A DNA stretch of 64,000 bases from Ehretia macrophylla (lineage: Eukaryota; Streptophyta; Magnoliopsida; Boraginales; Ehretiaceae). This document shows, one piece after another, positions 3,001-57,921 of the stretch. The stretch covers positions 22,222,139 through 22,286,138 of the forward strand of contig CM075769.1 in NCBI GenBank assembly GCA_037974665.1. Reading direction: 5' to 3'. The number at the start of each line of letters is the position of its first letter. Position 1 is the first letter of the stretch. The notes under the pieces were generated by a model. That model did not search any database, had not been told where the DNA came from, and saw only the letters and a list, made by a program, of their open reading frames with translations. Made by a program: the position numbers and the translations under genes.

Positions 3001-3406
3001 TACGCCACCACTCTTCTGCCTCATCATCAAGCAAATAGACAGCAGAAGTCACCTTCCTCTCATCAGTGTACCCGAGAGGATCAAAAATTGTCTCTAACTT
3101 ACTAATCCACGACTCGGCCTTCCTATCATCATGCTCTCCTTGAAATCTAGGAGGATAGTACCCCAGAAACTCCTTCATAGTACCTCGACCGTGATTACGA
3201 CCCTGTACATTCTGTATCTGGGCCTGCAATGCCTGAGTCTGAGCAGCCTGACCTGCTATCAACTGGGCCTGTCCAGCCATCAAATCTACAATCCGATCCA
3301 TTGCTGCCCCTAACCTGTCATCACCCCTATCACGGCCCTGTGCAACATTATCAGGAACCTCATCTACTATCTCGGGCCTACCACGAGTCCTCGGTCTACC
3401 GGCCAT
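1..3406 (-). pseudogene. Decayed gag-pol of gypsy A (gag, zinc knuckle, protease, RT, RNase H start)
   Basis: Gag begins at the ATG at 3404-3406 (MAGRPRTRGRPE). Its conserved capsid part (YYPPRFQGE, EEWWRTL) lies around 2850-3200. A CCHC zinc knuckle (CxxCGSSEHRAKDC) and an aspartic protease with DSGATHSF intact lie at 1799-2323. The RT is at 448-1911 with FDLRQGYYQ and FIDD both intact. RNase H continues to position 1 ([16 protein letters not shown]). Four breaks are visible: TAG at 2744-2746 and TAG near 2420, each replacing a CAG glutamine codon; a 1-bp insertion in a T run near 1806-1811; and TAG near 448 replacing a TGG tryptophan codon. The reading frame is otherwise shared, so this is a recently inactivated copy. 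Confidence 0.9.
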
Positions 3407-3682
3407 CGTACTAATCAAAGAGTTAGCACAGGTTATAGCACGTAAACAGGTTATATACAACTTTTAACACATAAACAACAAACTCATATAAAGCACATAG
3501 ATCACATAAGTTTCAATCACATAAGCAAATTGATCACATAATCACATAAGCACTTAAATCACATAATCACTTAATCATTTAGTCATATCAATACATAATT
3601 CACTTTTCTTTCTTTTCATACATATTTCATGCTAAGACCATTACCCACATTCAGAGAATACCCCGGCTAACAACTAACATGC
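3407..3682 (-). other. Leader of gypsy A with CACATAA repeats
   Basis: This non-coding leader lies between the primer site and gag. Between about 3480 and 3600 the plus strand is filled with variants of ATCACATAA and AAGCACAT at irregular spacing. A similar CACATAA-rich leader occurs in gypsy C (54188-54330). I see no open frame in it. Confidence 0.6.
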
Positions 3683-3694
3683 GCTCTGATACCA
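3683..3694 (-). other. Primer-binding site of gypsy A (initiator tRNA-Met)
   Basis: On the minus strand this reads TGGTATCAGAGC, the plant LTR-retrotransposon primer site pairing with the 3' end of initiator tRNA-Met. It lies 6 nt from the LTR end at 3701. Confidence 0.9.
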
Positions 3695-3700
3695 CTTAAA

Positions 3701-6087
3701 TGTCACGCCCCAACTCGACCCCACCTACAATCAGTCAGGACGCAACGGAATTTCGGCAGTATAACGACAGTAAATAGAATACCGAGGTTCTAAACCAACC
3801 TCATTAATAACATTAAACATCCAATTCCATAACCATACAAACAACAACTCCTCAACAGCATAACAACACACAACATAACTGTAATATACAATAATCAGTC
3901 CTCGTTATCTGCCTCCGTTCCAACATAACATACAATACCTCAACCTTATCATACATTTCAAAAATAAGTTGAGACCCATCTAACAACTTAACCATAGACA
4001 AAAGAAAGCCACTAAGTTAACATCATTTGGATCATCATCTTTTCAACATCTATTACAATAAGAACCATAAAGCATATAAAAATCTACTAAGCTAATGTAC
4101 ATGACATTAAACAACATAGAATCATGGATAAGACTCAGGGACATATGACTCATCCACGAAAGGCACATTTTCCTCCTCAGGAGGCACGTACCCGTAATCC
4201 GGCTCTGCAACACTTGTAAGCATGCAATAATAGAGAGTGAGCTTATATAAATAAGCCCAGTGAGGATCCGATAGATCTCGACAGTATTCACTATGCTCCT
4301 TGGATTTAGTCCTTTGAGCAAGTAAACACACAACAACAATAACATTATCATCACATAACTATATAACCATTCAATAAAGGATACTCTATTTGGTGTAGCT
4401 CCAAACGCCATCACGATCTCAACCGTTCTTCTAATAACTCCCCATTACTCACGCACCCGAGGTACCTCACTAGTCCCTCCCTCCATGACACCTTCGTCAT
4501 GCGAGCTGGGGGTAGCCTCTGGCAGTCATGCCGTTATCAACCCGACAGCCCAACGCTGCCCGAGATGTGGCACACACATACCAAGACTCCATAATCATCA
4601 TCAATCATCAATCAATCATCAATCAATCATCATTTATTCATCGTTGATAGCATCAATTATCATTTAAACAACAATAACTTAGTTAGATGACAAAGTAGGC
4701 CATCTAACCGGACATGCATTATATACACAGTTAAACCCTAAATTACTCATCAACAACTCACCATTCAACACTCAAACACCACCCAATCATCTAAAGGCAT
4801 CGTTCAAGAAATTAAAGAATGACAACCTAAACTTTAAAAATTCATAACTTACATTCTACTAATCCAAACATCACCAAATCAGTTTCTATCACTCACCCAT
4901 TCAACCTACTACATTAGCCCTCTCGGAAATCCACCATAACACCTCCAAATCATGCCCGATAACCCTAAAACCCTAGGATATCTTGGCTGAATTTTCCGGA
5001 TTTTCCCACAAGCAATGTAATCAAAAATTCGGCATTACAACAGCGCTAACACGTACTTAACAAGTATTTAGAAATTGATGGCAATCGATTTCGATCATCA
5101 CAACTCAATTAATTCAACATTAAACAATTTAATCAAAATTTAATACCCGAAAAATAAAAATTATGCTACATCTGACAGAAATTCGTAGTATTACCACTAA
5201 ACGATCCCTAGCATGCAAGGAGCAATAATCTAACATCATATTACAATTCTAAAGGTTCAATATTCATTTATACGCAAAAATGCAAAAGACAAGTTTTGAG
5301 ATCTAGAATTTTTCTCTCACCTTTGATGCGATAAAAGCCTAAGGATGCGTGAAGTGCGTGCCCAACAAGCAGAATCCAAATCGGTACGAAGTTTTACGGA
5401 CAAAAACCAAGTTTTTCTTTGAATTTTTGATTGAAAAACCTTGAAAATTCTCTTTTCTTTTTCTCCTTCTTTCTCTCGGCCAAGTGTGTGCAATTGGTGT
5501 ATTTTTGTGTTATGTGAGTGTGTGTAACCAGTGTGAGCATAAATAGTTAATAGTTAATATAGTTTAAGTTATAAAAACTAATTAATTTTTTGTGTTTTAA
5601 TGACTTTAAAAGCATTTTATTACTCACCCATGTTCAAAATAATTATGCAACCCCCAAGATATCTCAAGTGGGTTATTTTTAGATGACAAGAAGTTTTACA
5701 TTCAAAGAATTCCACCCGAGTCGGCTTAAAACTCGATTTTTCACAAAAAGTTGTGTAAAAACCCTAATAAATTCCTAAGCCGATTTGAAATCTGTTTTTA
5801 TCAATCACATGTCTATTAAAGTCTATGGACTAGGTCTAGAAGGGTTAAAAAGACCAGTTTCAAAATTTTAGCGGACGTGCGTCCAAAACACTATTCACTA
5901 AAAGACGATGATAAAATTTCTGATCCTGTTTTTGATAAAAATTTCATGAATGCACATTTAGCACGTATTAGGAGTATTGACATCAAAATTATAACTTTCT
6001 AGGACCTATAGCACATAAACAGGTCATATGCAAGCAAAACGAGGTATAGCACGTAAAACGAGATAAGCAGAAATGTGGGGTTTCACA
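3701..6087 (-). repeat. 5' LTR of gypsy A (2387 bp)
   Basis: In element orientation the LTR begins TGTGAAACCCC at 6087 and ends GGGGCGTGACA at 3701, with TG...CA termini. It is the same family as the solo LTR at 13955-16407 and more distantly the one at 55505-57921. Visible inside in element orientation: 19-nt spaced GCAC/TGCA units at the outer end (6011, 6029, 6049); a donor-like AAAG/GTGAGAG at 5321/5320; a GGCAGC-type hairpin near 4541-4570; GTATCCTTT at 4376-4384; a hairpin GGGCTTAT/ATAAGCTC at 4239-4258; and an acidic short frame ending with the stop at 4122-4124. Confidence 0.9.
4122..4384 (-). other. Splice-like box, hairpin and acidic mini-frame in LTR of A
   Basis: From 4384 down: GTATCCTTT box, about 120 nt, hairpin 4239-4258, a degenerate acceptor (ACAAG), then a frame reading DYGYVPPEEENVPFVDESY and so on to a stop at 4122-4124. 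The same peptide, allowing indels of whole codons, is encoded by the LTRs at 13955 and 55505. Whether it is spliced or translated is unknown. Confidence 0.5.
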
Positions 6088-9017: not shown

Positions 9018-9467
9018 TGAAGGAAAACATTATATGGCATGAATCAAATTCTATTTTAAACAAGAATAAGACGGAAACATTTATGCATGGATTTTTAAAA
9101 CGAATAAAGCATGAAATAGCTATTTGAACATTTAAACAGTTCATAGTTTAATTCTAAAAGCAAGTAAAGTTTTCCAAAATACCTTTTTATCGTAAAACGA
9201 AAAACTTCACCTTGAAAAAGATGTTCCACACGCCTATAGCAAAGCTTCTGCTCCTTCACTTTGATCTTTCCCCTTTATGCCAAATTATAGCTTAAGTATT
9301 GATCAAGTTGTGGGACTTGATCTTGCAAAACTAAACTAAAAGAAAACTGATTCGAGTTTCCTCAAAGAGTAAGGGTTACTCAAGTAGAGAGAGAGAGAAA
9401 GATCTCAAAGGAGATGGTGCAATTGTAGAGCTTAGGGTAGAGGCATTTATATACGTAAAAAACCATG

Positions 9468-11979
9468 TGAGACACCCGAGATTTCTCCATACAATGCATT
9501 TACTGTTGCATCCATTGTTTGTGCATTTAATTATGTGCTTTACTTCTTGTCTTTCTTAGCTACTATTCATTCCATTTTTCAACTACATTATATTAATGAA
9601 TTAGTATTTTTATTAAATCATATTAATTGTTATAAGAATAGGAAAAATGAACAATTGAGTTAGGAGCAATAGGAGCGATAGGAGCACTCATTTAGAAATT
9701 GTTTTAGCAAACTAGGAATAGTATTACGTAACTAACTTAGTGATTTAATTAGCTAGCTTACATTTTACAACCTAGACTCGGTTTTAAGCTAACTAAGCTC
9801 ATTTTAGAAGTCAACTTAAGCACCCAACTTAGCCCATTTATTATAAACTCAACACATAACACCACTTAACCCAGTAGTTGACAAAAACAAAAAAAAAAGA
9901 GTGCAGTGAACAGTGCTGAACCCGACAGCCCTTTTTGTGCTTTGGGATGAATTTTTCTTCTTCAATTCATCACTTCAAGCCAAGCCAAGCTAGGAGCACA
10001 TAGTTTAGGGTGTTTGCAAGTCTCCCGAGAGCTCTTGCGCGCATTGGTGAGAGATTCATGACCCTTTTTGCATATTTAAAATTGTTGCTCATTTCTTGAT
10101 TTGTTAGAAATGTGATCAAATCCTATTGTAATGCTTATCTATTCTATTATACGTTGTATATAGGTGCTAGAGAACACCTTTAAACCAATAGAAAGTATTT
10201 TAAAAGGTTGGAATCGTTGCTTTGATTTTTGGGGTGAATAGTTATAAGATTTCTAGGGTTTTGTGTAATTGTGTGTATTGGCTTGATTAATTACTTCTAT
10301 TAGATATCTTAGGTACTAATAAAGGTAGTTTAATAGCCCCGTGTACTTGAATTTCTCTAAATTTGTATAGAATGTGAATTAGCCGACTTTAACAAAGGGG
10401 TTTCGGGGTTAATGCTAATCCGGGTAGATTCGGGCTTCACTTTTAGTATTATTAGGCTACCTAGGTGCTATAGAACCTTTGCTAACTCTTGTTTGAAGCC
10501 CGATTAAGGTAGGTGTAGTTCAAAGCTATAAGAGGGAAATTGGGGCTTTTGGGGTAATTGCGGATAATTGAACGTGGTTGAGGATTGTAAGAGTACCTTA
10601 AGGGTTAGTTAGAAGATTGGTATAGCTTCCCCTTGAAATTGAATCATTAATATGAGTTTGGAAGGAAAACGGTTGAAAAAACAAAGGGGGTTAAGGGTAA
10701 ATTCGGTTGTCACTCGCATCTAAGACCTTTGCATGTCTCCATATGTGTTTAAATGTGGTTTCAAGTTGTTTTGAAGCTTTTAGTATAGTTCTATGTGTAT
10801 CTTGGATATTCCCCTTTGTAAACCTCTTAATTGCTTGTATTGAACTACTTCTAATCTATCTGTTTCGAGGTCAACCTACTTTGTTGATCCTCCCACGTGT
10901 TATTGCTTATATTTTTATCGATATATTGCCATTTTTAAGTGCATTTCATAGTGGTTGCGCAACCATAGTGTCAAGGGCGGTTGTGTTAAATATCGGCTGG
11001 GCGGTGAGGGCTTGCCAATGGATATTCAAACTCCGTACCCTATTCCCTTACTCGCCTGGTCTGGAGATTGCCAGGGGCTGTTAAGTCGTAGGATTATCGG
11101 GGTACATCCGGAGTACACCCACTGGAGTGTTTGGGGTTATGCTGGCTTATCGTGATCGAGATCGTGGTTCGTGGATCGTGAATGAAGACCAAGTGAAGAT
11201 TTGGAGTGTTGGGGTTAAGTGTAATGTATCCTTTTAATGTGTGGTTACATAAGCTATTGTTATTCCTTGATTGGTTTAATTGCTATTATTGTTTAACTGT
11301 TTTATCTGTTGCATTGCACGCCCCGGGAAACTTCATCCCTCACTGGGCAACAGTGGTTGCTCATACCTCGATATATATGTTTCAGGAAGTGCTAAGGGTG
11401 ATCCCCAACTATTTGAGGTGATTGTGGAAGAGGAAGAAGTTCAGACAGATCCCTTGCCCTAGTTGTTGTGTGTTTGTTGCCTGAGGTGGATGTGATTTCT
11501 TTTTATTACATGGCGTACTTGTATTACTATGTTATGATCTATTTTGTGGCCTTAGAGCTGTGTATATTCTTGTAGTTGCAAGTTGAAAGATAGTTGGTTG
11601 TAGAGATAGTTTTGAGATACCATGGTTTGTAATAACTATGTTCTATTTTCTAGCTACTTGCATGCTTGGGAGTTTATGTTTTAAAGTATGCTTGGTTTCA
11701 ACTTCTAGGAATGTTTCAAGATTACTTTGGATGGTATGATAATCGGATTTATGGAGAAGTTAAGTTGGTTGCATGCTTGTGTGATTTTGAACTATTGTAT
11801 GCTTCAAGGCTCGGATGGCCTTGAACCTTTGAACTTTAGTTATAAAAGCTTGTCTTATTGTAATGTGGCTTTAATTGAGTGATTATAGGTTTTCAGAATG
11901 TCCATGGTACAGAGGAGACTCTGTCCGTTTGATGGGTCCGGACTTAACCTTTAGCGTGGGGTTGGGTCGGGGTGTTACA
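9468..11979 (+). repeat. Solo gypsy-type LTR S1 (2512 bp, target duplication CCATG)
   Basis: It starts TGAGACACCCG and ends GGGTGTTACA, flanked by CCATG at 9463-9467 and 11980-11984, with no internal region. Its ends and interior resemble the LTR of gypsy F (37830-40288). It contains a donor-like GTGAGAG near 10047, hairpin GAGGTCAAC/GTTGATCCTC (10867-10892), palindrome GGTTGCGCAACC (10953-10964), GTATCCTTT (11226-11234), hairpin GGGCAAC/GTTGCTC (11345-11362), acceptor TTTCAG (to 11385) and an acidic frame to the TAG at 11460-11462. Confidence 0.93.
10867..11462 (+). other. Conserved structured LTR module, copy in S1
   Basis: The ordered elements are: hairpin 1 with loop CTACTTT, the 12-bp palindrome, a GGGCTTGCC box near 11006, GTATCCTTT, hairpin 3, then TTTCAG and a 77-nt acidic frame (first two bases complete a codon; EVIVEEEEVQTDPLP, stop). 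The same order recurs in the LTRs F, G, K and C. The function is unknown. The splicing interpretation is inference. Confidence 0.6.
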
Positions 11980-13371
11980 CCATGCAAGGTAGTTCTGTGT
12001 AAAACTAATTCCAAGTCATAAAGAGTCTAGGATTTATGAATTATCCTAATTCCAATTAGATGAAGGAAAAACTCTTCCACCTTGCGTTCACACTACTCCA
12101 AGAGTCCAAGGCCTAGGAGAGGTGCCTAGGACCCTGAGTCCAAGCCTAGGAACACGTGCCAGGGTCCTGGCTCAACCCTTATGCTCTACCTAATTAATTA
12201 TTTATTAATTTAATCCAAAAATCAGCCAACTGTCAAAATAGAAACTTCTTCCAAGAATGGAACGTCTATTTATGACTTCTAATTGTCAATGGATTTCATA
12301 TTCTCTCATTTTAAAAATTCCTTAGTTTAGTAATGACACTAAAGACATAATTATCCTTCTACTAAAAATGACCAAAATGCCCTTACTAATCCCTAGCAAT
12401 ATTTTGTCATTTTAATCTTAGTCTATTCTACTAAAAGACTATGCTACATTACAAGATAATTATTGTATGAATAGGAGTATGACATACACAGTATGACACT
12501 CAGTCTTTAGACCAACTAAGTGATAATGACCATATAACCTCTCTATACTCACTCATAGTCAAGACATGTTTACCACTTGTACTATCACCTCTTTGACTAT
12601 ATCTTTCTCCTTAGAACCTCTAACCCATAATCTAACCATTGTCCGGAAGTGATCCACTTGACCATGGGATCAACCTATAAGTGTAACAACCAATACATTA
12701 TGTATTACTGTGCACAGATTCAAGATGATCAACTTGGATCATTCTAAGGGAGTGATTATTGTATAGATTCTTTATTGCATATGCATTGCCTTTCTAACCA
12801 ATTCCAGACACCCAAATCACAGAGCTATTGACCCATATAAGATATCAGCCATAGTGACTCAAAGTGCAAGAACCTGACTTCGTCAGTTCATCCACATATA
12901 CTCAAGATTGAGAACATTGGTCCACCTAGTAGCTAGTAGGTATAGGTAACCTTTATCTTTGATAGTACTTATTTAGAGGTCACACCTACGGTGGCCCATC
13001 AAATGCATACACATGCATAAATGAAATAAGTATGGAACCCTATCCATGATCAAGGTTGATCACCCTACTATAAAGGGAACTTATTCACAATAACTTCTAC
13101 CGTAGTAGAATGTCCAGCTCTACTACTTAGTTATGGACTAAACAATTCTGCTTTAACAAGTAACCATGACTTAAACCTTTTGTACGTAACTACCACGTAC
13201 CTAAGTCAACACTAGAAGCAAAGACCTTACATACATATATATACAAGTCAAAGCACATAAGAGAGAAATATGCTCATAAAAGTAAGATGACATTTAATTA
13301 TTCATTGCAAATATTCAGATACAATGATGACAAAATGCTAATGGTCTTTTGGGCATATCCTATTTCTAATA

Positions 13372-13954: not shown

Positions 13955-16407
13955 TGTGAAACCCCACTTATCTGCTTTAACTTGATTTACGTGCTTTGTC
14001 TCGTTTTGCGTGCATATGACATGTTTATGTGCTATAGGGCCTAGAATGTTATAATTTTGATATCAATACTCCTAATACGTGCTAAATGTGCATTCATGAA
14101 ATTTTCATCAAAAACGGAGTCAAAAATTTTATCGTCGATTTTCAGTGAATAGTGTTTTCGAAACACGTCCGCTAAAATTTTGAAACTGGTCTTTTTAACC
14201 CTTCTAGACCTAGACCACGGACTTTAATAGACCTGTGTTTGATGAAAACGGTTTTAAAATCGGCTTAAGAATTTATTAGGGTTTTTACACCGACTTTTGC
14301 AAACAAATCGAGTTTTAAGCCGACTCGGGTGAAATTGTTTAATTGTAAAACTTCTTGTCACCCAAAAATAACCTACTTGAGCTATCTTAGGAGTTGCATT
14401 TTTGTTTTGAGCAAGGAGATAGCTAAAATGCATTTAAAAGACAAGAAAATGAATTAAAGGACTAAAATACTACTTTGACTTTGCATTTTATTTATTTGAC
14501 CAAGCTTTTAATTGCATTTAGTCATCAACACACACTCAACACAACACAAAACACACTCCACACACACACAAAGGGCCGAGAGCCATAGGAGAAAAAAAGC
14601 CAAAGAGTTTCAAGGTTTTCCAAGCAAAAATTCAAAGAAAAACCTAGTTTTTGTCCGTAGAACTTCGTACCGACTTGGATTCCGCTTGTTGGGCACGCAT
14701 TGCACGCATTCCTAGGCTTATATCGCATCAAAGGTGAGAGAAAAATTCTGAATCTCAAAACTCAACTTTTGTGTTTTTGCGTAGAATTGAAAATCGAACC
14801 GTTAGAATTCTAATCTGATGATAGATTATTGCTCCTTGCATGCTAGGGATCATTTAGTCGTATTACTACGAGTTTGTATCAGTTGTAGCATAATTTTTAT
14901 TTTTTGGGTATTTAAATTTGATTAATTTGTTCAATGTTGATTAAATTGAGTTGTGTTGATCGGAATCGATTTCCGTCGATTTCTAAATGTTTGATAATTA
15001 CGTGGTAGCTCCATTGTAATGCCGAATTTTCGATTATGATGTTTGGGTGAAAATCCGGAAAATTCAGCCTTGACACCTTAGGGTTTTAGGGTTATCGGGC
15101 ATACTTTGGAGGTGTTATGGTGGTTTTCCGAGAGGGCTAATGTAGTTGGTTGAATGGGTGAGTAATAGAAACTGATTTGGAGTTGTTTGGATTAGTAGAA
15201 TGTAGGTTATGAATTTTTGAAGTTAGGTTATCTTTCTTTAAATTATTGAATTAAGCCTTAGTTGATTGGGTGTGAGTTGAGTGATTGAATTGTGAGTTGT
15301 TGATGGGTAATTTAGAGTTTGATTGTGTGTTTAATACATGTTCAGTTGGATGGCGTCCTTTGTCATCTAACTTAGTTATTTTGTTGTTAATTGACTATTG
15401 ATGATTATTATGATGATAATATGATTATTGATTGATGATTGATGCCGAGAGATAAACAGTTCTGCTAGACTGTCCTCCTGTGAATGATTGATTTTTATTA
15501 TTATTGCTGGGTCTCTAGTATGTGTGTGCCACCTCTCGGGCAGCATTGGGCTGTCGGGTTGATAACGGCATGACTATCAGAGATTGCCTCCAGATCGCAT
15601 GACGGAGGTGTCATGGAGGGCGAGGTTATTGGGGGTACCCCGGGTGCGTGAGTTTATGGGAGTCACAAGAAGGCTGTTATGATCGTGATGGTGTTTAGAG
15701 CTACACCAACTAGAGTATCCTTTATTGAATGGTCATATAGTTATGTGATGATATTATTATTGTTGTTATTGTGTGTTTACCGACTCAAAGGAGTATTCCA
15801 AGGAGTTTAGTAGACCTTGCTCGAGATCTATCGGATCTTCGCTGGGCTTATTTTATATAAGCTCACTCTCTATTATTGCATGCATACAGGTGTACTTTCG
15901 CAGGATTACGGGTACGTGCCTCCTGAAGAGGAGAATGTGGAAAACGTGCCTTACGTGGATGAGTCCTATGTTCCAGAGTCTTATCCGTGATGTCGTACAT
16001 GTTTTATTATCTTGTAAATTAACTTAGTAGACTTTTATATGCTCTGTAGTTTATAATGTATATGATGTTGATAAGTTAATGAATTAGTTGATGTTGTCTT
16101 AGTAGCCTTTCTTTTGTTTATGATTAGGTTGCTAGATTGGCTCAATATGTTTTTGTATTGTATATTAAGGGTTCATGTATTATGTTGGAACGGAGGCATA
16201 TAACGAGGAATGTTTATTATATGATATGGTCATGATGTATGTTATTATGTTATTGAGGAGTTGTTTGTTGTATGGTTTATGGAGTTGAGGTATGATGTCC
16301 TATGGAGGTTGGTTTAAAGCCTCGGTATCCTATTTACTGTCGTTATACTGCCGAAATTCCGTTGCGTCCTGACTGATTATAGGAGGGGTCGAGTTTGGGG
16401 CGTGACA
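13955..16407 (+). repeat. Solo gypsy-type LTR S2 (2453 bp, target duplication GCTAC)
   Basis: It starts TGTGAAACCCC and ends GGGGCGTGACA, flanked by GCTAC at 13950-13954 and 16408-16412. It is the same family as the LTR of gypsy A. It shows GTGC cores at 13991, 14010 and 14029 (19-nt spacing), donor-like AAAG/GTGAGAG with GT at 14734, hairpin GGCAGC/GCTGTC in 15534-15560, GTATCCTTT at 15715-15723, hairpin GGGCTTA/TAAGCTC at 15844-15864, and a frame from 15904 to the TGA at 15988-15990. It interrupts the RNase H gene of copia N. Confidence 0.95.
15715..15990 (+). other. Splice-like box, hairpin and acidic mini-frame in S2
   Basis: GTATCCTTT (15715-15723) is followed by hairpin 15844-15864, two possible acceptors (CATACAG ending 15889-15890 and TTCGCAG ending 15903), and 29 codons beginning DYGYVPPEEENVENVPY and ending with TGA. 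Compared with the copy in LTR A, the difference includes a whole-codon insertion of three residues that keeps the frame. This suggests past selection on the reading frame. Confidence 0.5.
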
Positions 16408-27992: not shown

Positions 27993-30900
27993 TGTTATAA
28001 CCCAAACCCAACATGTAGCACATCGTACATACTTGCATGTCAATATGTGTTATTTTAAGTATCTATAGGTATATATGTGTTTATTTTAACATTTAGATTT
28101 ATGTAGTAGGATTATTTTCTTCTACTTTTCTTATTTTCTTTAAAAGAGGACACTAGTATATATTAATTCAAATAAAAATATTTTAGTTGTTATCTTGTAA
28201 TTTTAATTATACGAGATTATTCCTAACACTTAATAGACTTATTTTTATCATTTTAAAACTAGCCTTGAGCTTGGGGTAAAAATTAAAATATTTTATTTTA
28301 CAAAATTCATTTCCCTTATTATACATTTATTTTTGGGCATATGTTCATAATTTTTAATTGCATAGCAAGTCGGGAGAGTGCATTAGGAAAATAATTTTCA
28401 TAATGCATGAATAGTATTTTCAGCATTTAGTTTTAGCATTTAGTGTTTGTTTTAATCCTAGCCAAACCACTTGAACCACTAAGCATCCATTTAACCCATT
28501 TGACTTGCCCAAGACCATTTACCCTTGACCAACCCAATATACATAATATAACACATATACATACATATTTAGCAAAAAAAGAGGAAAAAAAAAAAGGAAA
28601 GCTCCTCTTGGCTGTGAGCTACAAATAAGAAAAAAAATTGACTTCTTCCATTTTTTATCATCAAAGCTTGCTTGGAGTTGATTTTGAGCATTCCTAGAAC
28701 ACCTGCAACCTTTCTTCTTCTAGCTTTGGTGAGGGATTTAGCATATTTATGTGATTTCAAGGCTTATGTATTGTTTTTATATTTTCTAGATTTGTTGTTA
28801 AATGCTTATATTATGCTTGAATGTTATATAATATATTGTCTAAATGCTATGTAAACTTATTTTGAGTAGTTGAATGGCTTGGTTGGTGATTTATTGCAAA
28901 GATCAATTTAAGAAGATGATGAATAGTAGTTTTTAGGATTTTTGTGTAATGTTGATTCTAGGATTGATTCTATGCTATCTAAGGATTCCTTAGGTGCTAT
29001 TGAACCTAGGTTAGTGATTAGAATGAATAAAATTTGAATAAACTTCTATAATTTGCTAACTTGGCGTGATTTCACAAAAGGGCTTCGTGTAAATTGTTAA
29101 TTCGGGTGCAATTGAATGTTATAGATAGTATTTATTAGGGTGGTAGCGCTTAAAATACTTTTATGGTATCAAATTGAGGGGTGGTTTGGGTACTTATAGT
29201 TCAAACGGACCTCGGGGCTTTTGTGGTAGAAGTGGTTAAAAGTGTGATTTCATAGCTCTAAGTGGTGCCATAAAGTGCCCTTAGAAGTATAGGATAGTTG
29301 GCTTGTGGATTATGTGACTCGTGTTTGGTATGGGCATTGAATTGAACCAATGAACCAAGGGGTCATATGAACGAAGTATTGATTAAGTGTGTCTAAGTTT
29401 GTTGGATAGTCTTAGATAGGCTAATTAGTGATTATGTTATGTTTATGGCGTTGATTTGGTGATCGGGTCTAGTAGTTATAGTTCAAATAGACAAAGGGTT
29501 GTTCTAGGGTTTAATGGTAGTCGTGGTTAAGAGTCAGTTTTCTTGGCTCAAAAGGGGTTCATAATAGGTCATTAGAAAAGTAGAGTGGTTGAATTGTGGA
29601 TTGCTTGAATTTTGTTTGATCGAGCTTGAGTGTGTACTAAAGGGCCTTTGTTGTTAAATGTAGCTGTATTAATATATAGATGTTTGAAGAGATTCTGGAA
29701 ATTAGCAGCTATCTAGTTTTGATTTGTAAATGTATGGTTGCATAGACTGTATATGCTTATTTCCTTGTTTATATTGTCAGTGTTGTACAAGAGGAGAAGA
29801 TTGAAAGAATTGGTGGCTTCATGAGGTAAGGGATTCATTTTACTTGGCATTTTAATTGATTTATTGCTTCATATATAATGAATATTGTATGGTTAATATG
29901 TGTTTTAGCTATTTTATTGAGGTTGGAATATGTGTAAAGTTATATTGATTATAATTGCTTATGTGCAAGGACAACCTCTTTTGTTGTCCTCATTGTGTGC
30001 TTATCGCTTTATATACTTATCGAATTGTGTGATAATAATCGTTATCGATATCGTGGTTGCGCAACCATTTGGGCATAGTAGTGTCGGGGAAGCAGGGCAG
30101 CATCGAGCTTGCCGGTATACCTCGGCTACCATCCACTAGAGTTATTGGGGTTATGCCGGCTTATCGTGATCGTTATCGTTATTATATCGGGTTTCTTTTC
30201 ATGGTTTGTGGATCGTGGTTCGAGGTTTTTTCTTGTGGACAACATGGTATCCTTATTGAGTAACTCTCGTTTGGGCCCTAAGCCATTGGAGAGTTACCTA
30301 ATATCCTTTTTACTATGTATATGACTCTCACTTGGGCCCTAAGTCCTTGGAGAGCTACATTTGATTGTATTTCTTCTTTCTATGAGTGTTTGTTGGTTTG
30401 TAATATTGATTGAGTCATTATATTGATATGGTATCTCTGTGACTATTGTTTCCTTGTTATTAAATGTATTTGATTGTCTTGAACATTATGTTGTGTTGCC
30501 ATTGAGTTCTTAACTTGCTACTTAGTCTATAGATTTCTAAAATATGTTACGTAGCTTTATTGTTTGAAGTGAGTTTTTTACGTTGTTAATTGATTCTATG
30601 ATTTATATGCATTACACGAAAACATTTTTGAAAATCTTCTCATTTATTCTCTCCATCACTGAGTATACATGTATCTGTATGCTCACCCCTCCTTTCTAAC
30701 AATTTTACAAGCAAGGCAAAGTTTGTCTCCAAGAGGTAGAAGAGCGGGTTGAGGACTACTTTAATTGTTTGTAGCTGAAGTTGATTGTCTTACGTGCTGT
30801 CATTTGAGTTGGATGATCTTTATGTAAATCATGTGTATAGTTATGTTTTCTTTTGAGGCCTACATGCCTTGTATATGTTAGTTGTTATAAGGTATGTAAT

Positions 30901-31305: not shown

Positions 31306-33407
31306 TGTCACACCCCAACCCCGACCTATTACTAGGATAAGGCCGGAACATGACGTGTACTAGATAAATAAACCTGTACAATCATCAAATCATAACCTAG
31401 ACATTTATAAATCTCACAAGTAACTTCAAGAAGGGTGCCCAAAACTAACGACACTTCAACCTTCATTAACCTATTTTATATATACAAGGCCTAGTAATAC
31501 CCATCAAGCATGTTACAAATCTTTCAAGCCTTCTAGGCCTCAAAAGAATAAGACAATAGTGAAATTACAATCCAACATCCCAAAAGAATATTACAGTTAT
31601 TAAAGTTGTTTACATTAACTTAGTTCCTAACATCCAAACATTCATCATTACAAGCAAGCAAAGCCGGATCACAACAAGCAGAAGTCTGACTCGTCACACA
31701 AGTAAGCCTCGCCCTCGGCTTGAGCTGCTGGCTCGGACGCAGCCTCACCTGAAATAGTGTCATGAAAAAGGTGCGCTACACCACTTAGTTCAATGAGGGA
31801 TAACGGGAAGGGGGTTTCGCAAGAGTTTTAATCTTTCGAAACCATTTAGAAAACATGTTATGCGTGGATAACGAATAAGTACAAGCAATAATGAATAAGT
31901 ATTAACACATAGCTCTACCCTTTGAGGTCCTCAAGGAACCAAACGAAGGTAGTTTTTACCATATATCAAAGGATACGGTTTTAATTGTTGGAGGCAGCCA
32001 GCCTTGATTTAGTCCTCATCCCTTTTTCCCCAACTCCAAACATTATGTGATATACGGATATCCACCGGAGACTATGGTAGTTGAGACTGACTGGTAGCCC
32101 GATGCTACCTAGGAGAAACAAATGCAACCATACCCATAATTGTGGTTGTAACCATCGCGCTCGTAGTTGTTACTTGTAAGCATAACATAAACAACATGAT
32201 ACAAGGGAGGGCAACAAAATAGGTTGCCTCCGTTAAACCATCATGTGCAAGCATTTGATCAAATAAAGGCATCAAACAAGCATGTGAAAGTACATGTCTT
32301 ACACATAATTATGCATCAAATATATCCCACACTTAAGCATCTCATGACCCTTGATAGCTCATAAAGTAGCCACATACTAAAGGAGAGTGCAATAGCCCTT
32401 TAGGACCTCTCAAGGTAGCAAGAAAACTCCAAACAAGCGAAACTGCATTAGCCTAACTTATATGGTTAAGTTTTATACTTTCTTAAATGCCAATTAATCT
32501 GATTTTGGTATATAATTAAAGCCTATCGAAAGTAGATAGTCTTAAAATCAAACGAAACTCAATTCGGAATTGAATTGAGTGAGATATGGCCTTTGAAAAA
32601 AAATTTGCGCGAATTTGTCAAAAATATGGTCGAGTAAATCCGCTCAAGTAACTCGACCGGATCCACTCTTCCGGATGGGTGGCAGTGAGCATCTGGTTGA
32701 GTAAATCCAGTCGAATAACTCGACTGGGTCTACTCTTCCAGATAAGTGGTAGAGAGCATCCTTTCTCTCATCCGAATAGAGCATTTTACCCACGAATTCA
32801 AGGCTTTCTCTCCTATTTTAAAACCTAAGTTGCATATGCTATTGCCATGCTCCAAATCATCAACTTCACATACAACAACACAAGATTTCAATATATCCTA
32901 ACATCATCTACATCACATAAACCTATCCACAACAAATACCCATTAGCAAACCCAAGCTTGTCAACTAGGGTAGCTCAATCTCAACTTCTAGCAAGCCAAA
33001 TACATGTACAACATACATCTCAACCTTATACTAGTACTCAAGGGCTTAAGCAAGATTCTTATGACACTACACAACAACATATACTAGTACTCAAGGGCTC
33101 AAGCAAGATTCTTATGACACTTCACAACAACATTGAACCCTAGTTAACCAACAAAACCCCCATTACACAACACAAGTTCATATCTACCATTAACAAGCTC
33201 AATACCTACACATAAAGTATATAACAAGCTATATGACTTTACAAAGCCTTTTGAAAATCATCCCTTACCTTAGCTTTGTAGGAAAATTGCAAGTGTGGAG
33301 TTAGAGAGCTTGAAAATGCAAGATAATGCTTGAAAAATGCTTGAAACAACTTAGTCCCCCTTTTTCTTCTTCTTCTTCTTCCTTTGGTTGATCGTGCAAT
33401 ATGTGTG
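31306..33407 (-). repeat. 3' LTR of gypsy C, distal part
   Basis: It starts TGTCACACCCC on the plus strand and matches 54416-58890 after removal of J. GTATCCTTT read on the minus strand is at 31968-31976, hairpin GAGGCAAC/GTTGCCCTC at 32207-32230, and hairpin GGTAGC/GCTACC in 32089-32112. Two 67-nt repeats with GGTCGAGT and ACTCGACC arms lie at 32624-32760. A 53-bp tandem duplication (33028-33080, 33081-33133) is absent from the other LTR. Donor-like AAG/GTAAGGG is at 33267-33268 (minus). The sequence is interrupted by D at 33408. Confidence 0.9.
33028..33133. repeat. 53-bp tandem duplication private to the left LTR of C
   Basis: The units at 33028-33080 and 33081-33133 both begin ATACTAGTACTCAAGGGC and differ at only a few bases. 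The 5' LTR (near 58545-58605) has a single unit, so the duplication arose after insertion of C. Confidence 0.9.
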
Positions 33408-36348: not shown

Positions 36349-37271
36349 TGAAAGGATCGTGCTTACAAGAGGTGAATCACAACATATAGTGAGTTAGGTG
36401 GAAGCAAAAACTTGATTTCAAAAAATTTTCAGCAACACATATCATTTGTATTCACCATAATACCTTATGTCTAGTCCATGTAATCAACATATCTACTACA
36501 TATATAAACATATATATGAATGAACAAGAGTTATCAAGGTATACCTCTTGAAGATCTAGCCAAAGGAATGAAGAAGCTCCACAAGAATGATGACCAAGTC
36601 TTTCACACGTACAAAAGGTCTAGTTCGTCCACATGAGCATCCAAGAGCTTCTTCTCTACAAACCAAATCTTTGTACTAGCTATTTAGTTGGAGATATGAG
36701 CTTACACAAGTGTAGAGAGCAAGAGAAAAATTTTGCCCAAGAACTCTTCTCTTTGTCGAAAATGGAGAGAGCATAGAGAGAGAAAAATTCAGATTTTTTG
36801 CTCTTTAGTGTTAAGTCAAAAATCTGATTTTTTCTTTTTGCTTTCTTTGCATATATTTTTCCTATGCATACTTGTGTCTTGTGCATTCCATACATATATG
36901 TCTCCAATGCATCCTAGTGTCTTGTGCATTCCCAACATATATGTCTCCAATGCACCTTTGTGTCTTGTGCAACAATATAATACAAGTATATTATTTAGTG
37001 GAAAATTATGGAATTATCCATTATTCTTGCCACAATAAATTCTAGCCATAGATCTAGTCAAGATCAAATTTTGGCCTTAGATTATAATTAATCCTAATAA
37101 ATATTAGATTAATTAATTGGAAACTAACTTTCCATATTTGTACTTTGGCCTCAATACTTTCAATAGTTACATTTTTGGCCCATTACGTTTTAATGACCAA
37201 ACACAATAACGTTAACTATTTAACGTTTTCAAACTTATTGTAATGTGTAGGCATATAATATATATATATTT

Positions 37272-37329
<58 letters not shown>

Positions 37330-37829: not shown

Positions 37830-40288
37830 TGTAACGCCCCGAACCCAACCCCACGCTAATAGTCAGGCTCGGACCCGTCACTCGGACAGAGTCTCCTCTG
37901 TACCAAGGACAAAACTGATACCTGTAAACATTCATTCAAGACATCTGAACTAAAAGCAACAACTTATCAACAATAACTCCCAAGCCAAAACACAATCACA
38001 AGGCCATCCTAGCCTTGGAGCAACAATATTCTACTAAGCACACAAGCATGCGAGATAAGTTAGTTTTAGTCATAAGTAATTAAATACAATAAAATTCTAA
38101 GTTCCATATGAAGATTAACAAACACTCCAAGCATGCAAGGGAAATTAAAGTCTAGAATTCATTATTACAATCCAACAACTTTCCTTAACATCCTAGTACA
38201 CATCTACTAGACATATATATACAAGACTCCAAAGTCTCAAAATACATTAATAACAAGAACTCCACGTAAGAAGCACATAAAATCCACCTCAGCACACAAG
38301 ACACAAGATCACTGATTCTGATCTACTTGAACTTCTTCTTCTTCTCCTACTTCTAACAGCTGGGGATTCACCTCAGCTTCTCCTGAAACATTTCAAATGA
38401 GGAGTGAGCAACAAAGTTGCCCAGCGAGGGAGGTGATGCAGCATGCCAACGTGCAATATGATATGCAACACAAGTAAACATATATACAAGCCACATAAAC
38501 TAACAAGACAATAAGTCAAACTATTAATTACTTTAAAAAGGATACGGTTCCACTTCCAAGATTTCATCCACGAGCCATGATCCACGAGTATCACGAATAT
38601 GCCGGCAAACCCCAAACACCACAATTGGGATACTCCGGATGTATCCCGATCCTACGACCCTTTCTCCCGAGGTAGGTCCATGCCCAGCAGGTGAACCACG
38701 CCTCTGGGGTAGTGGAGTATGCCTCAGCGAGAAGGGAATAGGCACCATGGTAGTCGAGGGAGCACGGCAAGCCCGATGCCGCCCGTGTTTCTCGACGCTA
38801 CCATGTCCGATAAAGGTTGCGCAACCCAAAACAAGTCACAAGCAATCAATAATATCACATAACACGTAAGAGGGACGACAAAGTAAGCCGCCCTCACATA
38901 TATGCACGATAAAAGTTCATATATGCACGATATTAACTAATAGATGCCAAAAGAAACAATCAACACAATTAATTCCAATAATCTACTCAAATAACTTAAA
39001 TAGATCCTAAATATTCAATGCAAAGCATTACTAACACACAACAAGTTCCAATTGCAACTAAAAAGGCTAAAAACTACTTTTCCCCTTTCTTTAACCGAGC
39101 TTTCTTTCTCCTAAGCATAGTTTGAGATTCCAAATCATACCCTAGTCTTTCTATATTCCTAATTAAGCTCAAAGGTATCCTTTAAAGTCACTAAAACTCA
39201 TTTTTGAAGCAAAAGTTCGGGAAGGCCCCGAACGGATTTGAACTATAGCCATACTAACCGAACCCCAATTTCGCGAAACGAAAGCACCAAAGGTGCTTCC
39301 TTAGCTCAAGGATACCCAAATCGATGCCCAAATTTGCCCGGATTGCTTAACGTATAAAACCCCCTTTTTAAAGTAAGCTTATTATGCAATTAAATTCAAA
39401 TTCGAGTGTTTCAACCTAACGTGGCTTTTCAACTATCTTCCCTAAGGTCTAGAGCACCTAATTGAGGCATCAATTCAAGCCAATTATCCAATTTTCTCAA
39501 AACCCTAGTTTTAGGCACTATTCATCACCTCTTTGATCAATCTCAACATTCAACCATTAACTATGTTATCAAACCTCAAAAGTTAGCTCTAGAGACTTTA
39601 AATAACTCATAGGAAGCATTCATAACAAGATATATAGCTATAATTGACAAATCAATAAAATTGAACATATGCATATAAACTTTAAACTCAAGAAAATAAG
39701 ACTCCCTCACAATTTTGAAGATGGAGAAGCTTTGTTGAAGGTCCTAAGTTGCTCAAAAATCTTCCCAAGATCAATCTAATAGCTCAAAGTGCAAGATTGA
39801 AGAAGCAAAAATCCTTTTTTTCCTCCTTGAAGTGGACGGCCAAGGCTAGGGGACATGGATGGAATTTTTGCAATTGTTTTTGAGAGTTAATATGTTATGT
39901 GATGTTTTTTGCTTATTTCATATATGTTTATATGTTATTAAATAGGTCAAATTTCATAAAAACTTAGTCAAACTAGGCCAAAATGCAATTTCAATTATTT
40001 TTAGTTGCAAATGTTACTATTCTTACGTAACACTATTCAAAGCTCACAGAAAATATTTTTCAAACGCATACTCCTAAGCTCGAAAATTCAAAACGAAAAT
40101 TTCTTGGTTCCTTTTAAATGTCGAGTGACCTAGGAAAAATTTAAAATCAAGCTTTCGAAACAGTCGAAAATATTATGAATAGTAACCCACAACAAAAACA
40201 ATTAACAAGAAAAATGATGCACGTAGAAATGCGCACATAAGTATGCAACTATTATAATAAATTTAGGGTGAAATTCTCGGGTGTCACA
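37830..40288 (-). repeat. 3' LTR of gypsy F (2459 bp)
   Basis: In element orientation it starts TGTGACACCCGAG at 40288, directly after the polypurine tract, and ends GGGGCGTTACA at 37830. It is related to solo LTR S1. Module parts on the minus strand: hairpin GAGGGCGGC/GTCGTCCCTC (38870-38895), palindrome GGTTGCGCAACC (38815-38826), GGCAAGCCCGATGCCGCCC box (38766-38784, plus reading), GTATCCTTT (38537-38545), hairpin GGGCAAC/GTTGCTC (38406-38422), acceptor TTTCAG with the exon from 38382, and an acidic frame ending at 38309-38311. Confidence 0.93.
38309..38895 (-). other. Conserved structured LTR module, copy in F
   Basis: All parts of the module are present and well preserved, in the same order as in S1. 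The last frame reads EVGEEEEVQVDQNQ before its stop, and starts in the same phase (two bases after the AG) as in S1 and K. Confidence 0.6.
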
Positions 40289-45171: not shown

Positions 45172-45173
45172 CT

Positions 45174-46097: not shown

Positions 46098-46151
<54 letters not shown>

Positions 46152-47503: not shown

Positions 47504-48767
47504 AACACGTTTGTATACTTCTTATGCATTCGTTATATTATTGAAATGTAATCTATGGTTCATATTGTATATGGTTATGTGACTGTCAGTAAATGTATAA
47601 ATGCTATCAAATTGGTATATGAATTGATTATTTGTTCTAAATGTGCCTCATATGTCAACATGTTAAAATTGTGATTATATACATGCATGGAGGCAACCTA
47701 CCTTGTTAACCACCTAATGTGAAATGTTAATTGGCATAAATGTGCATTGCATACAAGGTTGCAACCTTTCATTTTTGGCATGGTAATGTTCATCGAACGC
47801 TGGGCAGTATCGGGCTTGCCAGTCTGTTTGTGACTACCATAGCTGTATTCCCTCTCTCGCTTGGGGCGACTTCCTTGGGGAGTTGGGTCGTAAGTTTATT
47901 TGGTGTACAATCCGGAGTATGCCTATGGGGAGCAATAAGAGGATGATTGATGCCAGCCACAACAATGGTTATTGAAAATGATATTGAGAGCAAAAGCTCA
48001 CCGTACCTTGAAATGATTGGTAATTGCATCTATTGTTCAATTTGATTCTTATATTATGCTTACATTCTTATTTGTATTGCATAACATGTTTCAAAGGAGT
48101 TTTCACAATGTAATCGGAAAAGACTTTCAAAATCCCTTTACCCTTTTTCCACTTTCGCTGGGTTTATAAGGACTCATCTTCATTTGCCATTACAGATGAA
48201 ACATAGGAAGGAATTGTACCTGAAGAGTATGTGCCCGTTGATGACCTACGGAGTGATTTCATGTTACTTGTGATGCATGAACGTGGCTATTTGTTGAAGT
48301 TTGTTATCTTACTTGCTGAAGACTATGTGTTTTATCTGTGTATGTGGCCCCTATGTAACTCAGGGCCTAATTTTGGTTTGTAATAATCTAGACTACATGA
48401 ACACTCTTAGACTGTGGTGTGCTTCCTTTTACTACTTTGGTTTAGTGGTAGTTGCTAGCTATTGAACCATGAAGGCTTTTATATGATTTGGAAGTTTGGC
48501 ATTTAGGTCAATCTTAAACTGGGACTAAAGGCAAACTGTCACTATAATTGAGTTATCCCAGGTAGCTTAAGGCTATGTTTCATAAAATCAAGGCTTTTTA
48601 GGCGATAATGTCAAAACCAAAAGTGCCAATTATAGCCATCATACTTCCCCTTTTTTTTGGGGGAAATATTGAGAGTTTTAGAAAACGACAAGCGTTAATA
48701 ATAAGAAACAATAGTGAACTAAGTCATACCTTCACTTACCACCTTTAGGTTGGGTCAGGGCGTGACA
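47504..48767 (+). repeat. Solo LTR D, second segment
   Basis: This continues D after copia E. It has palindrome AAGGTTGCAACCTT (47755-47768), GGGCAGTATCGGGCTTGCC (47802-47820), CTCTCGCTTGGGG, a decayed GTACCTTGA in place of GTATCCTTT (48003), a hairpin-like GGGTTT/GGACTC (48160-48175), acceptor CCATTACAG (to 48195) and an acidic frame VPEEYVPVDDLRSDF. It ends GGGCGTGACA at 48767. Confidence 0.7.
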
Positions 48768-54407: not shown

Positions 54408-55504
54408 CCTAAAGGTATTACGCCCCGACCCTGACCCATTGCTAGGACAAGACCGGAACATGACATGTACTAGATAAATAAACCTGTACAATCATCAAAT
54501 CATAACCTAGACATTTATAAATCCCACAAGTAACTTCAAGAAGGGTGCCCAAAACTAACAGCACTTCAACCTTCATTAACTTGTTTTATATATACAAGGC
54601 CTAATAACACCCATCAAGCATGCTACAAATCTTTCAAGCCTTCTACGCCTCAAAAGAATAAGACAACAGTGAGATTACAATCCAACATCCCAAAAGAATA
54701 TTACAGTCATTAAAGTTGTTCACATTAACTTAGTTCCCAACATCCAAAAATTCATCATTACAAGCAAGCAAAGTCAGATCACAACAAGCAGAAGTCCGAC
54801 TCATCACACAAGTAAGCCTCACCCTCGGCTTGAGCTGCTGGCTCAGGCGTAGCCTCACCTGAAATATTGTCATGAAAAGGGTAAGCTACACCACTTAGCT
54901 CAATAAGGGATAACGGGAAGAGGGTTTTCGCAAGAGTTTTAATCTTTCGAAACCATTTAGAAAACATGCTATACGTGGATAACAAATAAGTACAAGCAAT
55001 AATGAACAAATATTAACACATAGCTCTACCCTTTGAGGTCCTCGAAGAACCAAGCAAATGTAGTTTTTACCATATATCAAAAGATATGGTTTTAATTGTG
55101 AGACGGCCGGCCTTGATTCAGTCCTCATCCCTTTTTCCCCAATTCCAAACATTAGGTGATATCTGGAAATCCACTGGGGATTATGGTAGTCGAGACCGAC
55201 TAGTAGCCCAATGCTACCCAGGAGAAACAAACGCTACCATACCCATAATTGTGGATGCAACCATCGCGCCCGTAGTTGTTACTTGTAAGCATAACATAAA
55301 CAACATGATAAAAGGGAGGGAAACAAAGTAGGTTGCCTCCATTAAACCATCATGTGTAAGCATTTGATCAAATAAAGGTATCAAACAAGCATGTGAAAGT
55401 ACGTGTCTTACACATAATCATGCATCAAATATATCCCACACTTAAGCATCTCATGACCCTTGATAGCTCATAAAGTAGCCATATACCAAAGGAGAGTGCA
55501 ATAG

Positions 55505-57921
55505 TGTGAGGCCCCAAATTTTCATCTTTGCCTCGATTTGTGTGTTTTGACCTGTTTATGTGTTATATGAATTAGAATGTGCTAATTCTATGATTTATAA
55601 TCCTATTACATGCTATGTGTGCATTTATGAAATTTTCATAAAAAACGACATCATAAATTTTACCGACAGTTTTTGTGAAAAGTATTTTGAACACTTGTCC
55701 GTTAAAATTTTTACAGGGGTGTTTTAAACGTTTTAAAACGTAGTCTTCAGATATTAATAGACTCGTGTTTGATTAAAACAGATTTTAAATCGGCTTTGGA
55801 ATTTTAAAGGTTTTTACACTTTCTTTTGTAAAAATTGCATTTTTAATCGAGTCGGGTGAAAATGTTTGCATGTAAAACCCTTTGTCACCTAAAATAAATT
55901 ATCTAGAAATAGTCTAAGTGTTGCATAATTGTTTTGAGCAAAAATAGTATAAGAAATGAATTAAAAGACTAGAAATACAAAAAAACACTAATTTGTTCAA
56001 CTTTGACTTTGCATTATTTTTTGTTGACTTGCCTTATATATGCATATCAACTAAAATAGCTCACAAAACAAAAGTCAAAACACCACAAACATACACACAC
56101 ATGGCCGAAACTTAGGAGCCATTTTTGCTTGTATTTTTATCAAATTTTCTCATAGAAATTGCATTACAAAGCCAAAACACTTGAATCAAAGTTTGTTCTT
56201 GCTTGTTGGGCACCTATTGCACATCTTTCTTGCATCATAACACATCAAAGGTGAGAGAAAAATTCTAGATCTCAAAATGTCATTTTTATGTTAATTCATA
56301 TAATCAAATTTTTAGCTGTTGAAATGTTAAATTGATGTTATATTATTGCTCAGTAAATGCTAAGGATTGTTTATATGTGTTTATATAAGTTTTGAACCGT
56401 TGTAGCATGAATTTTTATTTTTCGGGTATTAAAATTGAGTTGTTGGCTATTTATTGAATAATTGGAGTTGTGGTGGTTGGAATCGATTGTTGTTAGCTTT
56501 TAAAAGTTTGTTAAATACGTGGTAGTAATGTTGTAATGCCAAAATTTTGATTGTGATGTCGAGGTGACAGTCCAGAAATTTCAGCCATGGTGCATTGAGG
56601 TTTTAGGGCTGTTGGGCTTAATTTGATGGATTGTGGTTGGTTTTCGAGGGGGCTAATGTAGTTGCTTGAGTGGGTGAGTGATAGAAACTGGTTTGGAGAT
56701 CATTGGATTAGTAGATTGTAAGTTATGACTTTTAGAAGTTTAAATTGTCTTTCTTTAAATGTTGAGATAATGCCTTTAGTTGTTTGGGTAGAGTTTGAGT
56801 GGTTGAATTATGGGTTGTTGTTGGTTAGAATCGGGTTTGGTTGAATGGATTAATGCGTGTTAAGTTGGATGGCCTACTTTGTCATCTAACTTAGTTGTTG
56901 AGTTGTTAATTGTTTAATTGATGATATGTTGTTGAAATGTTATTAGTTGATTATTGATTATTGATGAAGCCGAGAGATAGGAAACCTACTTTGTTGTCCT
57001 TCTGAGATATAAATGTTTATTATTATTGTCATGAGTCTTGGTATGTGTGTGCCACATCTCGGGCAGCGTCGGGCTGTCGGGTTGATAATGGCATGACTAT
57101 CATAGGCTACCCCCAGCTCGCATGGCGGAGGTGCCATGGAGGGAGGGGCTAGTGAGGTACCTCAGGTGCGTGAGTAATGTGGAGTTATAACAAGAATGGT
57201 TGAGATCATGATGGCGTTTGGAGCTACACCAACTAGAGTATCCTTTATTGATTGGTTATTATTACTAATGTGCTTATATTGTTATTGATGTTTATTATGT
57301 GTTTACTGCTCAAAGGATGATTTTCAAGGAGTATAGTAAATACTATTAGAGATCTATCGAATCCTCACTGGGCTTGTTTTATATAAGCTCACTCTCAATT
57401 ATTGCATGCATACAAGTGATATTGAACAAGATTACGGGTACGTGCCTCAGGAAGCTGAGAATGTGCCATATGTGGACGAGTCCTATGTGCCAGAGTCTTG
57501 TCCTTGATATCTGAGATGTTGTACTCTTTTGTTATCTTGTATATTAAAACTAGTTGGTTTGTATTTACTTAGAAATTTATGATGTATAAGATGTTGTAAA
57601 GATAATGGATTAAATGTTGCTAGCTTAGTAGTCTTGTTTTGGAACATGATTAGATTGTTAGATTGGTTATAATCTATTGTATGTTATATAGTAAATGTAT
57701 GATGCTGGAACGGAGGCGTATAACCTATGAATACAATGGTAAAAGAATGTTTAATGTATATTGTGGTTGTGCTGTTTAATTGTTGAATTGTTTGTGGAGT
57801 TGGTTGTATGAGTTGTGAAGAGGTTGGTTTAGAGCCTCGGTGTCTTAATTACTGTCGTTATAATAGCAAAATTCCGTTGCGTCCTGACTAATTGTAGGAG
57901 GGGTCAAGTTGGGGCATTACA
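55505..57921 (+). repeat. Solo gypsy-type LTR J (2417 bp, target duplication AATAG)
   Basis: It starts TGTGAGGCCCC and ends GGGGCATTACA, flanked by AATAG (55500-55504 and 57922-57926). It is a distant relative of S2 and the LTR of A. It has a donor-like AAAG/GTGAGAG (GT at 56251), GGCAGC/GCTGTC hairpin in 57057-57081, GTATCCTTT at 57238-57246, hairpin GGGCTT/AAGCTC at 57370-57390, and a frame DYGYVPQEAENVPYVDESY to the TGA at 57505-57507. Confidence 0.95.

Follow-up and report, generated by a model that had tools for sequence, protein, structure and literature searches.

Several families of LTRs in a plant genome share a homologous module in which RNA hairpins, splice-like sequences and a coding-like exon follow one another in a fixed order. 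The stems of hairpin 1 (H1), hairpin 3 (H3) and the inner part of hairpin 2 (H2) covary in a manner that supports selection on RNA structure. The original prediction had described an ordered hairpin module in several LTR families of a 64-kb stretch of DNA (the window, which is the whole stretch analysed). That observation is real and larger than first described, and ten modules in the window align end to end. We suggest, giving this reading a little less than an even chance, that the module may be the 3' half of an intron in the LTR leader that would be kept in unspliced genomic RNA only, with H3 tuning the acceptor. The ten modules, with the parts placed in or near them, are located as follows.

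9466..11980, + strand: S1 LTR (start, TGTGAGACACCCGAG, was read; 3' end is approximate, scaled from the LTR L002)
10047..10053, + strand: S1 donor-like GTGAGAG, upstream of the module (similar sites also occur in A, K, N and S1b, in F and in one J copy)
10867..11462, + strand: S1 module, H1 through acidic exon
10867..10892, + strand: S1 H1, loop CTACTTT
10951..10966, + strand: S1 hairpin with self-complementary loop, GTGGTT[GCGC]AACCAT
10995..11016, + strand: S1 H2 core (a weak form in S1, which stands outside the H2 test)
11095..11123, + strand: S1 hairpin 4 (H4), loop ATCCGGA, 4 bp
11226..11234, + strand: S1 GTATCCTTT, a U12-type 5' splice-site sequence (examples in the accessible part of PMC7367187)
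11344..11363, + strand: S1 H3, TGGGCAAC/GTTGCTCA
11380..11385, + strand: S1 acceptor-like TTTCAG
11386..11462, + strand: S1 coding-like acidic exon, ending at TAG
37830..40288, - strand: F 3' LTR (start directly after the pol end; end ...GGGGCGTTACA, as before the PBS in L053)
38309..38895, - strand: F module (H1 38895-38870, H2 38809-38745, H4 38651-38623, GTATCCTTT 38545-38537, H3 38423-38405, acidic exon 38382-38309)
62354..62929, + strand: K module (H1 62354-62378, GTATCCTTT 62669-62677, H3 62818-62838, acidic exon 62865-62929)
29969..30774, + strand: G module (divergent)
31641..32237, - strand: C1 module (H3 broken)
54749..55345, - strand: C2 module
4111..4712, - strand: A module (H1 4708-4682, GTATCCTTT 4384-4376, H3 4259-4238, acidic frame end 4122), in the 5' LTR of an element with gag at 2744-3463
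15340..16008, + strand: S2 module (A family)
56976..57525, + strand: D module (A family)
47682..48273, + strand: J module (a stop interrupts the acidic frame)

The six regions to which coordinates had been given (S1, F, G, K, C1 and C2) were read and their stems are present; families A, S2, D and J, which had also been named, were placed by homology. The quoted H1 stems were found in G, K and C1 and the quoted H2 stems in A and C1, and the H3 stems were found as GGGCAAC/GTTGCTC (S1, F), GGGCTTA/TAAGCTC (A, S2), GAGCAA/TTGCTC (K) and GAGTATAC/GTATGCTC (G). As to strands and forms, F and both C copies lie on the minus strand and H3 of C1 is broken; H3 of C2 takes a 7-bp form, TGAGCTA/TAGCTTA. 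A partial match of 50 bits at window positions 60354-60505 is perhaps the family called H in the original prediction.

A profile built from the ten window modules, which score 273.3-386.9 bits against it, was used to search 20 unselected 10-kb stretches taken at round coordinates from the same genome (1.58 Gb, 20 contigs). With a module threshold of at least 100 bits, 17 further modules (116.8-339.5 bits) were identified in nine of these stretches, and the top profile score in a reversed database was 1.4 bits. Because the window modules built the profile, the independent evidence is that of the 17 modules outside the window, some of which may belong together as LTR pairs of single elements (e.g. 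L024, L027). The module, whose absence elsewhere had been set beforehand as one of two points that would count against it, is thus present outside the window, and the extrapolated density gives a rough figure of about 100,000 copies in the genome. Genome searches with S1, F and K queries each returned at least 40 places. Among the matches listed, K copies were 94-96% alike, S1 copies 91-93% and F copies 98-99%, from which we conclude that the F family has probably moved recently. Mean pairwise identity between families was 49% over well-filled columns. (Note that six copies in L016, L024, L025 and L027, here called the N family, keep the H3 place and the acceptor without an alignable H1, have CATAGCCTTC or CATAGCATTC where others have GTATCCTTT, and are without the acidic frame.)

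The window is rich in Ty3/gypsy elements with a putative chromodomain, and the module sits inside their LTRs, on the pol strand. Pfam matches to reverse transcriptase, RNase H and integrase were found on the minus strand in the Ty3/gypsy domain order, followed after integrase by a weak match to the chromodomain PF00385 (E=0.00043; 20.6 bits, below the cut-off of 25.1); the elements are presumably Tekay-like chromoviruses. The S1 LTR is about 2.5 kb long and its module starts about 1.4 kb into it; the F LTR spans 40288 to 37830 (minus strand), and its module begins after 1.39 kb. A distance of 7.56 kb separates the LTRs L002 and L003, which are 94.5% identical over 2508 columns and are direct copies flanking gag-pol. 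The pol end precedes the LTR in L004, L005, L008, L029 and F; in F the conserved pol end lies at most 45 nt before the LTR, into which the open frame continues. Downstream of the 5' LTR lies the PBS, then about 0.3 kb up to gag, and TGGTATCAGAGC follows the LTR in A, F, S1, K and J. A repeat pair of 1.48 kb, 98.8% identical, occupies window positions 36348-37830 and 45173-46653; the first repeat adjoins the F LTR at that LTR's 3' end (37830), which puts the LTR and the F pol fragment between the two repeats.

An H3 stem of at least 7 bp was found at the anchored place in 32 of 37 modules (taking the best of the anchors found in each module), as against 6.6% of arbitrary places. In an alignment of 20 of the 27 modules, 98.0% of H3 cells were paired and the covariation score was 0.512, compared to 0.253 in shuffles and at most 0.130 in slid registers. 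This alignment omits L029_2430, L025_4746, L030, L024 twice, L027_8683 and C1; because C1 and L024_6820, in which H3 is broken, are outside it, two broken hairpins are absent from the 98.0%. For H1 (again 20 of the 27 modules, without the six N copies and L030, which have no alignable H1) 82.1% of cells were paired and covariation was 0.550, compared to 0.312 in shuffles, none of 500 of which reached the observed value, and at most 0.290 in slid registers. The H2 test was confined to nine sequences, drawn from F, J, C and G, the only families in which the outer stem is alignable, A, K, S1, N and L030 being left out, and gave 0.226 compared to 0.136 shuffled. For H4 the values were 0.197 and 0.111 (12 distinct sequences of 15; 2 of 500 shuffles reach), the 15 being those of the 27 modules picked out by a search pattern in which the inner pairs are already imposed. 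Counts of double-change pairs and of pair types were not above shuffles for H1, H2, H3 or H4.

Since shuffles ignore relatedness, we built a tree-aware null in which each column evolves independently along the tree. (Note that this is a simple simulation of our own rather than R-scape, that the tree was made from module columns outside H1 and H3, with H2 and H4 columns included, and that the H1 run used the six inner pairs only and the H4 run 12 sequences.) The observed covariation score was reached in none of 1000 runs for H1 and for H3, in 3 for inner H2 and in 19 for H4; the outer H2 stem failed, with 69 of 1000 runs reaching its score. For the share of paired cells the corresponding numbers were 8 for H1, 0 for H3, 21 for inner H2, 200 for H4 and 89 for outer H2. 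Thus, the proposal that paired changes reflect selection on RNA structure finds support in H1, in H3 and in the inner stem of H2, and not in the outer one. Likewise, covariation exceeds the phylogenetic expectation, by this simple null and on at most 20 sequences, for H1, H3 and inner H2, and not for outer H2.

The conserved words of the module point beyond its hairpins. Among eight family representatives the most conserved 9-mer was CCCTCRCTG at the foot of H3, followed by GTATCCTTT, the H1 loop CTACTTTGT, the H2 loop and, fifth, TTTCAGG after H3 (0.76 compared to a mean of 0.49). The last of these is part of an acceptor-like YYYCAG/G (TTTCAG/G) that starts the acidic frame, and in the 13 copies measured the exon begins 17-26 nt after the end of H3. 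TTTCAG/G reads as a 3' splice site, and a candidate branch site, CTCAY, lies where the H3 stem ends, in contact with its final base pair (by eye). The acceptor was picked by a loose pattern that failed or misfired in five of 37 copies, and it is altered in several old copies: the A and D window copies have ACAAG in phase 2, L010 has TTTCAAG, and L024_6820 has lost the AG. Upstream of the module, at -332 to -856 (0.3-0.9 kb), a donor-like GTGAG is found in 17 of 27 modules, the sites being hand-picked and without a chance control; 13 of the 17 score above 6. By family, it was found in A 5/5, S1 and S1b together 3/3, F 1/2 (the other has too little flank), K 2/3, N 5/6, J 1/5, C 0/2 and G 0/1. 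In the A copy of L029 the GTGAG follows a CA-rich and then a GA-rich stretch that resembles a 5' untranslated exon (by eye).

The spacing from H3 to the acceptor and the acidic coding-like frame that follows it are new here and go beyond the original prediction. The coding-like sequence after the acceptor reads ...GDPQLFEVIVEEEEVQTDPLP in S1, ...VNPQLLEVGEEEEVQVDQNQ in F, ...ADPLEVIEEEEQVEVFP in the K-family copy and ...DYGYVPPEEENVENVPF... in the A-family copy of L016, EEDPEQVPEDGVPNDEPLE in the J-family copy L019 and EATPEPAAQAEGEAY... in C2. The frame is in phase 1 after the acceptor in most callable S1, S1b, F, K and C copies, as well as in the A copies of L016 and L029 and the J copy L019. 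Variable positions fell 29/23/53 on codon positions 1/2/3 in five groups (p=7e-4), counting each variable column once, making no correction for decay, and leaving out the F pair, the N copies, in which the acidic frame is missing, and L027_4768, which has a gap of 50 nt; the F pair alone gave 17/19/16. Gaps in the frame are of 3 or 9, except for a one-base gap in the broken J window copy, and stops interrupt the frame in L002, L003 and that J copy. When 75-nt windows of the LTR are ranked by codon periodicity, the acidic exon comes first in A (z=3.59) and in S1 (z=2.32) and second in K (z=1.22); in J it is outside the top seven.

Several upstream exon candidates were examined, and among them no AUG was tied to the acidic frame. 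At a phase 1 junction, TAA would arise in K, in N and in part of A, where the donor context is CTAAG/, and T/GA would arise in F. A join to pol through GTAAGAAT, which ends pol in F, S1, A and K, was not supported as a general route: it would give an immediate stop in F and in three of four S1 3' LTRs (L003, L004, L008) and a stop after one codon in K (L016, L060), and is open in A (L029) and in S1 L005. (For F, the pol end was checked in the window and in 10 of 20 fetched places, and the exon start in the window copy only.) For a join to gag, a donor matrix picked out no strong in-phase donor in the gag region of F or K. A continuous frame across the putative intron is open in A, S2, D and L016 and not in F. 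A start at a nearby ATG differs in phase between L016 and L029. With a donor at the H4 loop the frame is open in F, K and S1b; in S1 and in part of J it is closed (by eye).

We infer from these sequences a transcription start, a splicing event and a role for each hairpin. The module would be part of the transcribed leader (R-U5) of the presumably Tekay-like LTRs, and the predicted intron would lie wholly inside the LTR: it would begin with a GTGAG donor that follows a short 5' untranslated exon and end at the YYYCAG/G just past H3. Splicing would remove the module, which unspliced genomic RNA would retain. H3 may set the use of the 3' splice site and so balance the two RNA pools, and H1, H2, H4 and the hairpin with a palindromic loop may mark unspliced RNA for dimerisation, packaging or export. 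In this arrangement the hairpins would stand downstream of a donor, which is the position of packaging signals in retroviruses, and H3 would be placed to gate the acceptor. Splicing, one of several roles named in the original prediction, thereby gains sequence evidence in the conserved acceptor, the donor-like site and the coding-like exon. A fuller scheme, in which an intron in the LTR has competing donors (a major-type GTGAG and a minor-type GTATCCTTT), a hairpin-gated acceptor, an LTR-coded acidic protein made from spliced RNA and a genome dimerisation and packaging fold within it, seems to us unlikely.

Rfam covariance models gave no match in the window at the gathering score and none at E<=1 for the S1 module. 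We found no publication describing the motif or an LTR-internal intron in the accessible parts of a literature in which few subscription journals were covered; the earlier statement that no motif of this form had been described agrees with both searches. BARE, a Ty1/copia element of barley, makes a spliced mRNA and an unspliced packaged RNA (PMC3735527, accessible part). The predicted element would likewise divide its RNA between two pools; the 104-nt intron of BARE starts 2 nt after gag, whereas the predicted intron would lie in the LTR together with conserved hairpins. EVD/EVADE (Ty1/copia, Arabidopsis) also splits its RNA pools, by shGAG splicing (PMC8892269). EVD and Ogre (Ty3/gypsy, Tat) resemble the predicted element in the regulated splicing of a plant LTR element (PMC8892269, PMC12786077, PMC6317226), but their introns are in or between coding regions, in other lineages, and the accessible parts describe no conserved RNA fold. 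None of BARE, EVD and Ogre is described there as having an LTR-internal intron (PMC3735527, PMC8892269, PMC6317226). In Cer1 of C. elegans a spliced mRNA codes for a nuclear export protein (PMC12786077, in part), a spliced LTR-element product such as the acidic exon might yield. The same 2025 review states, in its accessible part, that plant LTR elements are generally without introns (PMC12786077). Benachenhou et al. obtained no model for plant Metaviridae LTRs owing to length variation (PMC3601003, in part). Sunflower nanopore reads include spliced isoforms of other LTR elements and, in the part of that study available, the expressed set contains no Tekay elements (PMC7730604); transcripts of such elements may therefore be difficult to detect. 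The cis-acting RNA of plant Ty3/gypsy LTRs thus seems little described; the covarying module offers concrete sites for testing how RNA is divided between translation and replication, and could serve as the starting point of a covariance model with which to find and classify such LTRs.

The hairpins might instead be a packaging and dimerisation signal only, binding Gag and pairing two genomes, with the splice-like sequences incidental. Retroviral leaders carry packaging signals of this kind (psi, the dimer initiation site), with self-complementary-loop hairpins, downstream of the donor; here, in contrast, the hairpins are inside the LTR and are not known to bind Gag. A GCGC or TGCA loop on a 5-6 bp stem occurs in 10 of 27 modules, TCCGGA or CCGG is in the H4 loop of 13 of the 15 matched modules, and the module is located in the LTR upstream of the PBS. 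These self-complementary loops lend weak support to the dimerisation or packaging role that had been among those first suggested. However, A, K, N and C yielded no palindrome-loop hairpin, the covariation of H4 is weak (19 of 1000 runs) under a search pattern that forced its inner pairs, and a signal for packaging alone leaves the conserved acceptor and the coding-like exon after H3 unexplained. We therefore regard this account as rather unlikely. (The palindrome itself is GGTTGCGCAACC, or AAGGTTGCAACCTT in J, and folds between H1 and H2 into a short hairpin whose loop is self-complementary, at window positions 10951-10966, 30053-30068 and 38814-38827.)

A second alternative is that GTATCCTTT is a U12-type 5' splice site and that the module regulates a slow intron removed by the minor spliceosome. 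The same letters stand at maize and rat introns classed as U12-type (PMC7367187, accessible part). GTATCCTTT occurs eight times in the window, compared to 0.8 in shuffles, with seven of the eight inside modules, and the pattern RTATCCTT is present in 17 of 27 modules and in none of the reversed control. On the other hand, the N family is without GTATCCTTT, and an exon ending before it, tried as a source of the acidic frame, is closed in the needed phase in A and S1 and open in F, K, J and S1b, the last of which would, however, end at T/GA. Moreover, no exact TTCCTTRAY was seen by eye between H3 and the acceptor in the printed copies, K and one F copy coming near; without an exact branch site before the acceptor we do not call this a U12 intron, and control by the minor spliceosome appears quite improbable. 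Another role first suggested, translation, would make the module a site of internal ribosome entry or of shunting within a leader about 2 kb long. It is very unlikely: apart from the length of the leader between the supposed start and gag (by eye) nothing was found in its favour, Rfam gave no match, and the module is far upstream of gag. Common descent without structural selection, with paired changes arising by chance, would suit the relatedness of the families and the two of five pair measures that do not exceed shuffles, but is highly implausible given that the tree-aware null never reached the scores of H1 and H3 in 1000 simulations and that slid registers fail.

Two further features lie near the pol end and the PBS.

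F pol end near 40290-40340, - strand; L029 1022-1041; also L005, L008 and L060: hairpin just 5' of the polypurine tract
Window 3600-3700, - strand; also L053, L056, L057, L002, L010 and L019: block directly after the PBS

The first reads AATTGCG-AGGA-CGCAATT in most F copies read and AATTTCG-AGGA-CGAAATT in A, a paired change, in sequence that also codes for the end of pol and begins with the donor-like GTAAGAAT. The second, around GCCGGG and TGTGGGTA, is common to F, S1, K, J and A, in all of which an AG is found 0-21 nt before the gag ATG (block and AG by eye).
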